Shown piece by piece: positions 49,972-64,000 of a stretch of 64,000 bases of DNA. This DNA comes from Hyphomicrobiales bacterium (lineage in GTDB: Bacteria > Pseudomonadota > Alphaproteobacteria > Rhizobiales > Beijerinckiaceae). The DNA is taken from NCBI GenBank assembly GCA_900470095.1, contig UBZM01000024.1, positions 77,142 to 141,141 of the forward strand. The letters run 5' to 3'. Below the pieces are notes generated by a model. The model was not told where the DNA came from, searched no databases, and worked only from the letters and a program-made list of their open reading frames with translations. Each line of letters starts with the position of its first letter. The stretch's first letter is position 1. The position numbers and the translations under genes were made by a program.

Positions 49972-50712
49972 ATGGACCATCTGATGACGCTTGCTGCCGA
50001 CCCCGCCGTCTGGGCGGCTCTCGGGGCACTGATCGCCATGGAGGTTGTCCTCGGCATCGACAATCTGATCTTCATCTCGATCCTGACCAACAAACTGCCC
50101 GAGGAGCAACGCTCGCTCGGCCGCAAGATCGGCATCGGGCTCGCCCTGTTCATGCGTCTCGCACTGCTCGGCACCGTCGCCTTCATCGTGCAATTGACGG
50201 AGCCGATCGTTTCGCTCTTCGGCAAGGCCTTCTCCTGGCGCGATTTCATCCTGATCGCCGGCGGCCTCTTCCTGGTCTGGAAGGCGACGACGGAAATCCA
50301 TCACAAGGTCGACGTCAATCACGGACCCGATGTGTTCGACGGCGGCCGGGCTGCAACCGTGACCTTCGGCGCCGCGATCTTCCAGATCCTGCTGCTTGAT
50401 CTCGTCTTCTCGATCGACAGCATCATCACAGCCGTCGGCATGACCGAGCACATACCGGTGATGATGATTGCGGTGATCGTCGCCGTGCTGGTGATGCTGC
50501 TCGCCGCCGACCCGCTGGCGAAGTTCATCGAAAAGAACCCGACGATCGTGATGCTGGCGCTCGGCTTCCTGCTGATGATCGGCGCCACGCTGATCGGCGA
50601 GGGTTTCGGCGCCCATATCCCGAAGGGCTATATCTACGCCGCCATGGCCTTCTCGGCGCTGATCGAGGGCCTCAACATGATGTCGCGTCGCGCCGATCGC
50701 CGCCGCGACTGA
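49972..50712 (+). CDS. TerC family integral membrane protein
   Basis: The 246-residue protein has seven predicted helices and the TerC signatures [19 protein letters not shown] and [12 protein letters not shown], each with the conserved acidic residue in a GIDN or SID-type motif. The family is linked to metal (Mn or Ca) efflux and to exoenzyme metallation; tellurite resistance is only the historical name. GGAG lies 7 bases before ATG 49972. It is inserted between secB and the dnaQ-coaE-aroE block and stands alone. Confidence 0.92.
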
Positions 50713-52934: not shown

Positions 52935-53561
52935 TCAATCGATGAGAGCACCCTGCTTGCGCAGGGCTTCGAGTACGGCAAGGAGCGGAAGGCCGAGAAT
53001 GGTGAAATGGTCGCCCTCTATCGTAGCGAAGAGCTGGGAGCCGAGGCCCTCGAGCTGATAGCCGCCAACGCTGGTCAGGATCGCCGGGCCAGCGAGTTCG
53101 ACATAGGTCGCGATGAAATCCAGCTCCAGTCGCCGCATCGTCAGCCGTGCAGTCTGCCCGCCTTCAGCCAGGATCTCGCCGTCGCGTGCCAGCACAAAGG
53201 CGGAATGGAGCTCGTGCGCACGCCCGGCCAGAGTGGCGATCTGCGCAGCGGCGTCAGCGAGATTCTCTGGTTTGTGAAAGATCTGCCCCTCGCAGGTCAA
53301 CGTCTGGTCGGCCCCGAGCACGAAGCGGCCAGGCTTCATAACCGAGACATGCAACGCCTTGGCGCAGGCAAGCGCCGCTGCGATCGCCTCGCCCTCGACA
53401 CCCTGTGCGAGCAGCGGCCCCTCGGCAGCTCGCTCGTCGATATCCGGCTTCAAGGTGTCGACAGGGATCCCGGCCGCACGCAGCATGCCTGCCCGGGTCG
53501 CACTGCCGGAAGCAAGCAGCAGAGGCTCCGCCGGACGCCAGAGAGAGTGGCTCTTCGTCAT
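52935..53561 (-). CDS. Maf family nucleoside triphosphate pyrophosphatase
   Basis: The 208-residue protein has [18 protein letters not shown], the first Maf motif, PDIDERAAE, and [20 protein letters not shown], the second. Maf proteins hydrolyse non-canonical or pyrimidine nucleoside triphosphates and affect septation. ATG 53561 overlaps the ppsR stop (ATGA), so it is translated with that gene. The longer frame to 53672 lies in ppsR and is not used. YhdE versus YceF subtype is not assigned here. Confidence 0.93.
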
Positions 53562-54388
53562 GTCGCGATGAACTTCATGCGATGGTCGCGCAACAGGTCG
53601 AGGATGGCTGCCGCCGTCTCCTCGATCGAGCGCCGGGTGACATCGATCACCGGCCAGCCCCGGCGGGCACAAAGCTTGCGCGACTGTGCGATCTCATCGG
53701 CAACGGCTGTCGGGTCGACATAGGGCGTCTCATCATCCGCCTTCATCGAGAGCAGCCGGTTCTGCCGAATCTGCACAATGCGCTCGGCACTGGCGACCAA
53801 CCCGACGATCAGCGGCTTTCGGAGCCGCTCGAGCTCGGCCGGCAAAGGCACATGGGGGACAAGCGGCACATTGGCGGTCTTGATACCGCGATTGGCGAGA
53901 TAGATGCTGGTCGGGGTCTTCGAGGTGCGGCTGATGCCGACGAGAATGATGTCCGCGCTTTCCAGGTCGCCACCGAGCTGACCGTCGTCATGCATCAGCG
54001 TGTAGTTCATCGCGTCGATGCGGCGAAAATATTCGGCGTTGAGCACATGCTGCGCGCCCGGCCGCGGCGACCCCGCCTGACCGAGATAGGACTGGAACAA
54101 GGACAACACCGGGTTCAGCACCGACAGGCAGGGGCAGCCGAGCTCCTGGCAGAATTTCTCGAGCCGCTCCGCCCACTCCGCTTCGACGAGAGTGTAGAGC
54201 ACGACCCCTGGCGAGGATTCGATCTCCGCCAGGACGCGCGCAAGCTGCGCCTCTGAGCGCACCAGCGGATAGACATGCTCGATGGCCGAGACCGATTCAT
54301 ATTGGGCGGCGGCGGCCCGGCTGACCGCAATCAGGGTCTCGCCGGTGGCATCTGACACCAGATGCAAATGAAAATAGTTGCGCGCCAC
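53558..54388 (-). CDS. ppsR: Pyruvate, water dikinase / PPDK regulatory protein (DUF299)
   Basis: This bifunctional kinase/phosphorylase (DUF299) switches PEP synthase or pyruvate phosphate dikinase on and off by phosphorylating a threonine next to the catalytic histidine. The 276-residue protein starts at GTG 54388 and has [20 protein letters not shown] and the P-loop-like [20 protein letters not shown]. Its position facing hemE across the putative origin is the same as in Caulobacter and rhizobia. Confidence 0.94.
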
Positions 54389-54515
54389 GTGGGCTCCCGG
54401 GGCTTAACGAAGTTGCAACCTCTAGCGCGCCATATCGGCAATGCAAATCGTCGTCCTGGACCGGGACCCCCCAGCGCTAGCCGCGATGAGGGGTCACGCT
54501 GGTCATGGGGACTGC

Positions 54516-54524
54516 TGTGGACAA
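54516..54524 (-). promoter_or_regulatory. DnaA-box-like site 1
   Basis: TGTGGACAA reads TTGTCCACA on the minus strand, one mismatch from TTATCCACA. Confidence 0.6.
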
Positions 54525-54610
54525 CCGAACATCCGGCCGGCGCCCCGGAGCGCGACTGTATAAGTCCCTCTTTCCATCAACAGGCTGGCCCCTGGGGACA
54601 CGTGGGGCGA

Positions 54611-54626
54611 TGTTTCACGTGAATCA
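54611..54626. promoter_or_regulatory. parS-like site 1 (in oriC)
   Basis: TGTTTCACGTGAATCA matches the ParB site TGTTTCACGTGAAACA at 15 of 16 positions and keeps the central TTTCACGTGAA. Confidence 0.7.
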
Positions 54627-54737
54627 TTTTAACGATCGGCGGCCCCGACGCCGATTCTGATTTCTTACTAATCAGTTAAGGCGCCCTACCCCCCGGGTGA
54701 TTCCAGCCTGCGACATCGGCTCGCCTTGTGGACCGGT

Positions 54738-54746
54738 TGTGGACAA
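54738..54746 (-). promoter_or_regulatory. DnaA-box-like site 2
   Basis: A second TGTGGACAA (TTGTCCACA on the minus strand) lies 222 bp from the first in the same orientation, with a degenerate TGTGGACCG 3 bp to its left. Confidence 0.6.
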
Positions 54747-54779
54747 AGTTGGGCCGGGCTATTTGCCCCTGACCAAGAG

Positions 54780-54822
54780 TCAAAACAAAAGAATCTCTCT
54801 CTAAGATTCTTTTAAGATTCAG
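54780..54822. other. AT-rich repeat tract, candidate DNA unwinding element
   Basis: The segment contains GAATC at 54791, AAGATTC at about 54803 and AAGATTC again at about 54814, giving inverted and direct repeats in sequence much richer in A and T than the rest of the window. It adjoins DnaA-like box 2, as DUE elements do. Confidence 0.5.
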
Positions 54823-54847
54823 ACCTGAACGGCTGACCGGAGTGGGC

Positions 54848-55879
54848 ATGGCGAACGACGATCCGGCTTTCCTGCGGAGCCTTTCGGGCGAGGTGATGGC
54901 AACGCCGCCGATCTGGCTGATGCGCCAGGCTGGACGCTATCTGCCGGAGTACCGCGAGGTCCGTGCCAAGGCAGGTGGCTTTCTCGAGCTTTGCTACAAT
55001 CCGGCCTTTGCCACCGAAGTGACCCTTCAGCCGATCCGTCGTTTCGATTTCGACGCAGCGATCCTGTTCTGCGACATCCTCGTCGTGCCCCATGCGCTCG
55101 GCCAGAAGCTCTGGTTCGTCCAGGGAGAAGGCCCACGGTTGGAGCCAGTGGGCAACGCAAAGAGGCTTGGCGAGATCCATGAGGAGATCGACCAGGACGT
55201 GCTGGCGCCGGTCTACGAAACGGTTGCCAAGGTCAAGGCTGCCCTGCCTGACAAGACTGGCTTCATCGGTTTCTGCGGGGCGCCTTGGACAGTCGCGACC
55301 TACATGGTGGCGGGGCGGGGCACGCCGGATCAGGGTCCGGCCAAAGAACTCTTCACCCGTGACCCGGAGCTGTTCGCCCGGTTGATCGATCGGATCGTGA
55401 TCGCGTCCATCGCTCATCTCAACGCTCAGATCGATGGCGGCGTTGATGCGGTGCAGATTTTCGACAGCTGGGCGGGCTCGCTTGGCGAGGCTGATTTCGC
55501 GCGCTGGTGCATTGCTCCGACCAAGCGGATCGTCGACGGGGTCCGGGCGCGTCATCCCAAGGCAAAGATCATCGGCTTTCCCCGGGGCGCCGGCCGCCTG
55601 ATCCCCAGTTATGTCAGGGCGACCGGGGTTGATGCTGTCGGGCTCGAGACGGATATCGATCGCGAATTTGCGCGGACGCAGATCCAATCGCTTGCGCCGA
55701 TCCAGGGTCATCTTGACCCGCAACTTCTCCGGGCTGGTGGTGCCGATCTGGAGCGGGAGGTCGAGGCGATCCGTACGTCCTTCGGCGCTGGTCCGTTCGT
55801 TTTCAATCTTGGGCACGGCATCCTGCCGGATACGCCGATCGCTCATGTCGAGCGTTTGGTTGCGGCTGTCAGGTCATGA
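54848..55879 (+). CDS. hemE: Uroporphyrinogen decarboxylase
   Basis: HemE decarboxylates uroporphyrinogen III to coproporphyrinogen III in heme synthesis. The 343-residue protein has PIWLMRQAGRYLPEYR, the substrate-binding arginine segment, FCGAPWTVATYMVAGR and FNLGHGILPDTP. ATG 54848 is preferred to GTG 54842 because GGAG lies 6-7 bases before it. It is the first gene to the right of the putative oriC, as in Caulobacter. Confidence 0.97.
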   Translation: MANDDPAFLRSLSGEVMATPPIWLMRQAGRYLPEYREVRAKAGGFLELCYNPAFATEVTLQPIRRFDFDAAILFCDILVVPHALGQKLWFVQGEGPRLEPVGNAKRLGEIHEEIDQDVLAPVYETVAKVKAALPDKTGFIGFCGAPWTVATYMVAGRGTPDQGPAKELFTRDPELFARLIDRIVIASIAHLNAQIDGGVDAVQIFDSWAGSLGEADFARWCIAPTKRIVDGVRARHPKAKIIGFPRGAGRLIPSYVRATGVDAVGLETDIDREFARTQIQSLAPIQGHLDPQLLRAGGADLEREVEAIRTSFGAGPFVFNLGHGILPDTPIAHVERLVAAVRS

Positions 55880-55892
55880 TGAGGTTGCAGTG

Positions 55893-56318
55893 ATGCTGAT
55901 CGAATGGATCAAGGCATTTCACGTGATGGCGGTCATCTCCTGGATGGCCGGCATGCTCTATTTGCCTCGGCTGATGGTTTATCATGCGGAGGCGCAGACC
56001 GGCTCCGTGCAGTCCGAGACCTTCAAGATCATGGAGCGCCGGCTGCTCAAGGGCATCATCAATCCGGCGATGATCGCGACCTGGGTCCTGGGCCTGTACC
56101 TTGCCTGGGCGATCTACGGCTTCAAGGGTGGCTGGTTGCACGGCAAGATTCTGCTCGTGGTCATCCTCTCCGGCATCCATGGCATCCTGGTCGGACGGGT
56201 CAGGGCCTTTGCCGAAGATCGCAACGACAAGTCAGCGCGCTATTACCGGATCATCAACGAGGTGCCGGCCCTGCTGATGGTCGGAATCGTGATCCTGGTC
56301 ATCGTCAAGCCGTTCTGA
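55893..56318 (+). CDS. hemJ: Protoporphyrinogen IX oxidase HemJ
   Basis: HemJ oxidises protoporphyrinogen IX to protoporphyrin IX in most alphaproteobacteria. The 141-residue membrane protein has about four helices, AFHVMAVISWMAGMLYLPRL with the conserved heme-ligand His, and INEVPALLMVGIVILVIVKP. ATG 55893 is 13 bp after hemE, and the two are coupled. The segment encoding FHV contains TTTCACGTGA by coding constraint. Confidence 0.95.
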   Translation: MLIEWIKAFHVMAVISWMAGMLYLPRLMVYHAEAQTGSVQSETFKIMERRLLKGIINPAMIATWVLGLYLAWAIYGFKGGWLHGKILLVVILSGIHGILVGRVRAFAEDRNDKSARYYRIINEVPALLMVGIVILVIVKPF

Positions 56319-61304: not shown

Positions 61305-61320
61305 CGTTTCACGTGAAACT
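61305..61320. promoter_or_regulatory. parS-like site 2 (mnmE-mnmG gap)
   Basis: CGTTTCACGTGAAACT contains the perfect 14-bp palindrome GTTTCACGTGAAAC (61306-61319), 14 of 16 matches to the ParB consensus. Confidence 0.8.
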
Positions 61321-63273: not shown

Positions 63274-63921
63274 GTGTCTGTTGACAACGATGACCGCGCC
63301 CGCGCTCTGCGCTTGACTCCTGTTTCACGTGAAACACAGGAGCGGCTCGCGCTGCTGGTCGCAGAGCTGGTCAAATGGCAAAATGCGAAGAACCTGGTCT
63401 CTTCAGCAACGCTTGCGGATGTCTGGACGCGGCACATCGCTGATTCGCTCCAGCTCTTCGCATTGGCGCCTGACGCCAGGGCTTGGCTCGATCTCGGCTC
63501 AGGCGGTGGATTTCCCGGGCTTGTGATCGGGATCTGTCTTGCCGAGCAAGGGCAAGGTCGGATCCATCTGGTCGAGAGCAATGCTCGCAAATGCGCCTTT
63601 TTGCGCCACGCGGCCCGGGTGACCGGTGCGCCTGTGACGGTTCATGCCTCGCGGATCGAGGATATCGTTGGGGAGTTCACAGAAAAAGTCGACGTCGTGA
63701 CGGCCCGGGCGCTCGCACCGCTCCCGATTCTGCTAGGATGGTGCAAGGAGTTGTTGAGAACCGGGACACTTGGGCTCTTTCCCAAGGGACAATATCTAGA
63801 TGCTGAATTGACCGAAGCGTCTAAATATTGGAAGATTCAGGCCTCGACAGTTGTCTCCGTGACAGATCCGGCAGCTCGCATTCTGTTGATTCGCGAGGCC
63901 GAGCAGCGGGCCGATACATGA
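63274..63921 (+). CDS. rsmG: 16S rRNA (guanine(527)-N7)-methyltransferase RsmG
   Basis: RsmG (GidB) methylates G527 of 16S rRNA, and loss gives low-level streptomycin resistance. The 215-residue protein (GTG start) has LVKWQNAKNLVSSATLADVW, DLGSGGGFPGLVIGICLAE as the SAM loop and VVTARALAPLPILLGWCKEL. Codons 17-21 encode VSRET and contain a perfect parS. The stop overlaps the parA start (ATGA). Confidence 0.96.
   Translation: MSVDNDDRARALRLTPVSRETQERLALLVAELVKWQNAKNLVSSATLADVWTRHIADSLQLFALAPDARAWLDLGSGGGFPGLVIGICLAEQGQGRIHLVESNARKCAFLRHAARVTGAPVTVHASRIEDIVGEFTEKVDVVTARALAPLPILLGWCKELLRTGTLGLFPKGQYLDAELTEASKYWKIQASTVVSVTDPAARILLIREAEQRADT
63321..63336. promoter_or_regulatory. parS site 3 (perfect, inside rsmG)
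   Basis: TGTTTCACGTGAAACA matches the ParB consensus at all 16 positions and is palindromic. It is read as codons for VSRET within rsmG, 582 bp before parA. Confidence 0.9.
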
Positions 63922-64000
63922 CCGATCTGACTCCCATTACCCTTCCTCGCCGGCCACGTGTGCTGGTGCTCGCCAACCAGAAGGGCGGCGTCGGCAAGAC
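63918..64000 (+). CDS. parA: Chromosome partitioning ATPase ParA, N-terminal end (3' truncated by window)
   Basis: The last 83 bases open a frame beginning MTDLTPITLPRRPRVLVLAN and reaching QKGGVGKT, the deviant Walker A box of ParA/Soj ATPases, at about residues 21-28. ParA and ParB move newly replicated origins via parS. The start overlaps the rsmG stop, and parB is expected just past the window. Only the first 27 codons are visible. Confidence 0.93.
   Translation, partial: MTDLTPITLPRRPRVLVLANQKGGVGK

Follow-up and report, generated by a model that had tools for sequence, protein, structure and literature searches.

The window, namely the whole 64-kb stretch of DNA analyzed here, contained an intergenic region at 54389..54841 between two divergently oriented genes, as the initial annotation had described. 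The gene on the left boundary (53558..54388, minus strand) was ppsR, encoding a protein of the DUF299/COG1806 type (Kinase-PPPase, PF03618, E-value of 1.2e-90), and that on the right boundary (54842..55879, plus strand) was hemE (URO-D, PF01208, E-value of 3.3e-107), both identified as open reading frames with Pfam matches. The gap had been given a length of 459 bp, which holds when hemE starts from the ATG at 54848, but it becomes 453 bp when the GTG at 54842 is the start codon. The genes rightward of the gap were in the order of hemE, rho, mnmE, mnmG, rsmG, parA, and parB, and those leftward, read outward, were ppsR, maf, aroE, coaE, and dnaQ. The identities of PpsR, HemE, ParB, ParA, and RsmG were confirmed by Pfam, while the remaining neighbors were named by eye from their translations. 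The start of parA (AAA_31 domain, Pfam-checked) occupied 63918..64000 on the plus strand, and parB continued after parA (contig C99, L152:783-1661; PF02195, PF17762, and PF23552), so that the parA-parB pair was located on the hemE side of the gap. An Rfam scan of 53500-56000 at gathering thresholds gave no match, and a sigma-70 promoter scan of 54300-54900 found none, a result that says little in this bacterial group. Two terminator-like stem-loops were detected in the gap at 54599-54621 and 54634-54656, with 0.5 expected from shuffles, and one of them takes a part of the parS palindrome described below as an arm.

The gap contained two identical DnaA-like boxes TTGTCCACA in the same orientation on the minus strand, at 54516..54524 and 54738..54746, each reading TGTGGACAA on the plus strand, with no other copies in the window. 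A motif scan also found a degenerate DnaA-like box on the minus strand at 54727..54735, read as TGTGGACCG on the plus strand. The identical pair and the third, degenerate box had both been noted in the initial annotation, and they were confirmed here. The general DnaA box is TTWTNCACA, from which each TGTGGACAA differed by one mismatch; sites of this quality numbered 11 in the window, with 0.08 expected in the gap. The gap thus held two DnaA boxes at one mismatch and one degenerate box. When the whole genome (7,174,110 bases in 122 contigs) was searched, TGTGGACAA gave eight matches including the two in the gap, and as the reversed-pattern control also gave eight, single boxes were no more frequent than by chance, and it was only the occurrence of a pair within a 453-bp gap beside hemE that stood out. 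The first box fitted TGKGGAYAA in each of the 30 same-genus gaps listed; of 30 further genomes from the genus, 8 had no exact TGTGGACAA upstream of hemE, one stretch being only 213 bp long.

The AT-rich tract pointed out previously was borne out at 54777..54821 as a candidate unwinding element. The AT content reached 75% over 40 bp at 54782, a value attained by a fraction of 3e-5 of the 40-mers in the window, and a perfect 10-bp dyad, AAAAGAATCT/AGATTCTTTT, was present within the tract at 54787-54813. The CTGATT/AATCAG dyad was likewise read from the sequence at 54657-54662 and 54670-54675, where it overlapped a CtrA-like 15-mer, TTACTAATCAGTTAA, with one mismatch on the plus strand (54665..54679). 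A second CtrA-like 15-mer, also with one mismatch, was located at 54801-54815 and overlapped the AT-rich tract. The perfect form TTAAN7TTAA was found in 27 of 30 same-genus gaps and nowhere in the 64-kb window. No IHF-like sequence WATCAANNNNTTR was present in the gap at one mismatch or fewer, the consensus being that of E. coli, which may not fit this group.

Seven GANTC motifs were located in the gap, all within the 200 bp of 54621-54820, against a total of 149 in the window. They were GAATC inside a half-site of parS (54621..54625), GATTC at 54653..54657 and 54699..54703, all three from a motif scan, and four sites in or beside the AT-rich tract (54777, 54791, 54805, and 54816). The initial annotation had noticed repeated GATTC words next to the second box, which are indeed present, but it missed this cluster of CcrM sites. 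The cluster was the densest in the window, the next separate 200-bp cluster having four sites, and dinucleotide shuffles of the gap gave a mean of 2.0 GANTC, with seven or more in 11 out of 5000. The excess was also seen in relatives. The 30 same-genus gaps contained 183 GANTC versus a shuffled mean of 70, which corresponded to 12.99/kb versus 0.78-4.33/kb for seven other palindromes of equal composition; the numbers were 86 versus 41 in 21 family gaps, and 204 versus 100 in 51 named gaps. These 102 gaps were drawn from 134 loci, of which 32, including many of Bradyrhizobium type and some short ones, were dropped as no ppsR match was found beside hemE. The densest among 76 gaps tabulated were those between ppsR and hemE of Sphingomonas (L074 and L087), with eleven GANTC in 306 bp and without parS.

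The genome encoded GcrA and a methylase of CcrM type (N6_N4_Mtase PF01555 and RAMA), and the GANTC sites in the gap are accordingly predicted methylation sites. The CcrM-type gene (L262, G000:C19) overlapped the end of a convergent mutY-like ORF (HhH-GPD and NUDIX_4 by Pfam), an arrangement also seen in Caulobacter.

As the genome was in 122 contigs, GC skew was measured in G057, a genome of the same genus having HemE of 96% identity and a contig of 6,832,823 bp, for which 20 stretches of 20 kb were sampled. The skew was negative in all eight stretches sampled from 0.35 to 2.20 Mb and positive in the five from 2.204 to 3.0 Mb, the first of which began at the end of hemE. The values on either side of the locus were -0.011 and then +0.040, which are averages over 20 kb and not of the gap itself. 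Elsewhere in G057, the first 20 kb was slightly positive (+0.009), the stretch at 3.5 Mb was negative and out of line, those at 4.0, 4.5, and 5.0 Mb were positive, and those at 5.5 and 6.0 Mb were negative. In the 152-kb contig carrying the locus, the skew was -0.015 over the left 131 kb and +0.043 over the right 20 kb, and cumulative skew reached its minimum at position 50456 of the window, 4 kb left of the gap, where it was only slightly deeper than at the gap (-1325 versus -1300). The accessible text of PMC1914354 describes the origins of Caulobacter and Rickettsia as bounded by hemE and COG1806/DUF299 genes, and the boundary given for Caulobacter in the initial annotation is in print. These data support the origin call made there, which passed the skew check proposed with it as far as the sampled stretches of G057 and the single contig reach. 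Chromosome replication very probably starts in the gap at 54389-54841, a hemE/ppsR oriC of Caulobacter type. The origin in itself is nothing out of the ordinary, and what sets the locus apart is the CcrM site embedded in its parS-like site.

The parS-like site of the initial annotation was confirmed at 54611..54626 on the plus strand as TGTTTCACGTGAATCA, one mismatch from the canonical TGTTTCACGTGAAACA, while its strong conservation and its built-in CcrM site had escaped notice. One half-site was the canonical TGTTTCAC, and the other was GTGAATCA, in which the single departure from canonical parS, T at position 14, generates GANTC. The site was approximately 9 kb from parA. Within the genome, five parS-like sites with two mismatches or fewer were found, three of which were clustered within 8.7 kb on this contig: the site in the gap, CGTTTCACGTGAAACT with two mismatches between mnmE and mnmG (61305..61320, plus strand), and the canonical TGTTTCACGTGAAACA inside the start of rsmG (GidB, PF02527; 63321..63336). 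The other two were 2-mismatch sites in another contig (G000:C63:6118-6133 and 55138-55153; L011 and L012), one being of the GANTC kind and one GTGAAGCG. No query protein of the origin region matched within 1.5 kb of them, and they possibly belong to another part of the origin region or to a second replicon. That the gap is the origin and that its parS-like site is a real parS bearing a CcrM site are, taken together, probable on the sequence features described.

The conservation of this site was pronounced. Among 61 genomes of the genus, 54 carried TGTTTCACGTGAATCA unchanged upstream of hemE, namely all 30 loci first fetched as the best HemE matches and 24 of 30 further genomes, the 61st genome being G041. 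The seven same-genus-labeled genomes in which parS was missing were six of the further 30 (one examined over 213 bp only) and G041, and their HemE was either fragmented or no more than 54% identical. Seven genomes under this label (G041, G044, G047, G054, G031, G026, and G034) had HemE matches of 46-63% identity, some of them fragmented, and no parS upstream of hemE where testable; the shared genus label seems here to cover a separate lineage. When 31 gaps (the 30 and L014) were aligned, a block of 18 bases, TGTTTCACGTGAATCATT, was invariant, the next longest invariant run being six. A site with the TCACGTGA core was present in 33 of the 102 gaps, all of the GANTC kind, and in none of the 21 family gaps. 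The 33 comprised the 30 same-genus gaps, L014, and L039 and L047, in the latter two of which GAGTC replaced GAATC. L014/G004 and L039/G443 look like duplicate pairs and were kept from double counting.

The distribution of the two forms by place was analyzed in 60 origin regions, each of 20 kb except for a single one of 11 kb. Forty were chosen around a known GANTC-parS, 15 around a canonical site, and five by the same genus label, four of them with a known gap site. The regions contained 221 sites with three mismatches or fewer, and when the less canonical half was oriented to the right, the right half-sites were GTGAAAC in 96, GTGAATC in 89, GTGAGTC in 16, and others in 20. Non-canonical right half-sites were thus GAATC (89) or GAGTC (16) in 105 of 125, a ratio biased by the choice of 40 of the 60 regions for the GANTC form and of four more known to hold it. 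The GANTC count is also slightly low, because two sites counted as canonical, TGATTCACGTGAAACG in L214 and L231, carry GATTC in the other half. Among the 104 sites matching neither search pattern exactly, 49 were canonical, 35 were GANTC, and 20 were others. The 15 regions chosen around a canonical site had 34 sites, namely 27 canonical, five others, and two GANTC, both of the last being in L248 and one of them in its gap between ppsR and hemE.

GANTC and canonical sites numbered 9 and 0 in the ppsR-hemE gap, 4 and 0 inside hemE, 15 and 4 between rho and mnmE, 49 and 44 between mnmE and mnmG, and 10 and 38 in rsmG. Fisher's test of the gap versus rsmG gave 1e-5, with relatives that are not independent and regions not chosen blind. 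The idea that GANTC-parS is a feature of the oriC gap only was rejected, as the form was also present in rsmG, mnmE-mnmG, and rho-mnmE. In four genomes of another family (L233, L234, L235, and L237), a GANTC-type parS, TGTTTCACGTGAATCT, was located inside hemE at about +320, where it was the listed site nearest to the start of hemE in each.

Across the order, the GANTC form TGTTTCACGTGANTCA was found in 169 of 397 genomes and 61 of 141 genera, with one match of the reversed-pattern control, and canonical parS in 198 of 397 genomes; these counts are per genome, and relatives are not independent. In a sample of the phylum (299 genomes requested with at least 90% completeness), the GANTC form was present in 21 of 41 genomes of this order, in 0 of 72 from other alphaproteobacterial orders, and in 2 of 186 from other classes. 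A universal presence in Alphaproteobacteria was thereby rejected; the other orders mostly have CcrM, according to the available part of PMC11514494. The form also did not track the presence of CcrM, since the RAMA methylase was found in all of eight genomes tested, six of which lacked TGTTTCACGTGANTCA and had canonical sites, giving no separation. CcrM by itself does not bring the variant.

We propose, with a probability of roughly 0.4, that many of the chromosomal centromere sites of Hyphomicrobiales, including every parS seen in the origin gap, have become CcrM sites in one of their two halves and would act as a methylation-sensitive centromere, in which hemimethylation would gate ParB loading at an origin just replicated and couple initiation to the start of segregation, with a reset by late CcrM. 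The strongest competitor is a simple tolerance, namely that ParB of Hyphomicrobiales accepts or prefers T at position 14 in one half-site, and GANTC is a by-product without regulatory meaning. We consider this unlikely, though the likeliest of the alternatives. It agrees with the near confinement of the form to one order in the phylum sample and with the existence of lineages having a CcrM-type methylase yet canonical sites only. The substitution pattern bears on both readings. C or G at position 14 (TGTTTCACGTGANSCA) was rare, occurring in 20 of 397 genomes at 20 sites (19 G and one C; the reversed control gave four matches in three genomes), which argues against mere tolerance, and the drift expected in GC-rich genomes would be toward G or C, not T. 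Position 13 was altered with A14 kept (TGTTTCACGTGABACA) in only 1 of 288 genomes, yet GAGTC was present in at least 13 of the same genomes; the N of GANTC thus appears to be looser only when GANTC is present. C15 was kept in 105 of 106 T14 sites, as GANTC requires, a base that may matter to ParB too. T14 sites occurring in nearly as many genomes of the order as canonical ones, C or G at 14 being rare, and position 13 loosening (to G, in the sites listed) together with T14 are what one would see if GANTC as such were preserved. On the side of tolerance, N13 was only A or G among the sites of the order listed, suggesting that ParB may still read that base, and the substitution pattern would fit just as well with a ParB that still requires a purine at 13.

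A second explanation, which we regard as somewhat less likely again, assigns the GANTC cluster of the gap, including the one in parS, to a methylation-dependent control via GcrA, either of the initiation of replication or of the transcription of hemE, and not to ParB. Its attraction lies in the seven GANTC in 200 bp, of which four lie within or next to the AT-rich tract, in the GANTC excess over the sampled alphaproteobacterial ppsR-hemE gaps, and in the presence of GcrA. The accessible text of PMC3973325 also describes several GANTC sites in the Caulobacter origin and the accumulation of extra chromosome copies upon CcrM over-expression. This explanation, however, leaves unexplained the GANTC-parS outside the gap, in rsmG, mnmE-mnmG, and rho-mnmE, as well as the invariant 18-base block of parS. 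It is highly improbable that the origin lies elsewhere and that the gap is no more than a region of divergent promoters. In favor of this are the cumulative skew minimum 4 kb leftward in the contig, the division of the genome into 122 contigs, and the 20-kb resolution at which the skew of G057 was sampled. Against it, the skew changed around the locus in G057, parAB and three of the five genomic parS-like sites lie alongside the gap, the hemE/ppsR boundary is as in Caulobacter (accessible text of PMC1914354), and the sigma-70-type scan of the gap gave no promoter, which says little in this group.

In the preferred reading, DnaA would bind the TTGTCCACA boxes and open the AT-rich tract beside hemE, while CtrA would likely bind the TTAA-N7-TTAA-like sites and hold DnaA off. 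The parS in the gap would serve the ParB encoded approximately 10 kb away. The sequence, its position, its conservation, and the substitution pattern are observations; binding of DnaA, CtrA, and ParB, methylation of the site, and an effect of this methylation are our inferences. Until the origin fires, both strands of the GANTC-parS would carry a methyl group in the ParB half-site, one on the adenine of position 12 and, on the complementary strand, one on that of position 14. Initiation would leave the site hemimethylated, a state that would last until the late-cycle return of CcrM. ParB nucleation would then differ between an origin freshly copied and one not yet copied, and bound ParB may conversely shield the site from CcrM. 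The gating step taken alone, in which the methylation state governs ParB loading at the origin, is put forward tentatively, at slightly less than even chance.

The type of origin is already known, and no published description of a parS with an embedded CcrM site was found. The accessible parts of PMC11514494, PMC3973325, PMC6090056, PMC9239152, PMC5172544, PMC3708114, PMC9040568, PMC1914354, PMC13342612, PMC5815017, and PMC7383237 contain no description of a CcrM site inside a parS half-site; the available text of PMC5172544 uses GANTCs "at the parS locus" of Caulobacter as a control for methylation and does not state if these are inside parS. A search for the variant parS core as a text string found no paper, with supplements lying outside the search, so that absence from print is not proved. 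If true, a parS with a CcrM half-site would connect origin firing directly and physically with the first step of segregation, bearing on the role of CcrM methylation at alphaproteobacterial origins. Even if methylation is irrelevant, a definition of parS for this order that omits the GTGARTCA half-site would miss many centromere-like sites.

Caulobacter has its parS cluster approximately 8 kb from the origin. Compared with Cori of Caulobacter crescentus, the present locus differs in having parS inside the gap and in having fewer DnaA boxes than the five reported for Cori; no IHF-like site was found here at one mismatch or fewer from the E. coli consensus. The two origins share the boundary genes, DnaA-type and CtrA-type sites, an AT-rich tract of about 40 bp, and several GANTC, as described in the accessible parts of PMC1914354 and PMC3973325. 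With the chromosomal parS TGTTTCACGTGAAACA of ParABS systems, the site shares 15 of 16 bases, the palindromic core, the proximity to parAB, and the place in the origin region, whereas T at position 14 in one half-site gives GANTC and makes the palindrome imperfect. Among the secondary replicons of Alphaproteobacteria, those of repABC type also have their CcrM sites gathered at the loci for replication and partition, but GANTC there lies within promoters, within ori, or some 500 bp away from a parS, as far as the available texts of PMC11514494, PMC9040568, and PMC6090056 describe. Here, in contrast, GANTC lies inside the parS half-site, on a chromosome and with a chromosomal ParB. In E. coli, oriC holds a cluster of GATC sites and works with SeqA, these origin-packed methylation sites being hemimethylated after initiation. 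The packing of methylation sites in the origin is shared with the present locus, where hemimethylation after initiation would likewise be expected; the methylase and the motif are different, and here the mark lies in the centromere site.
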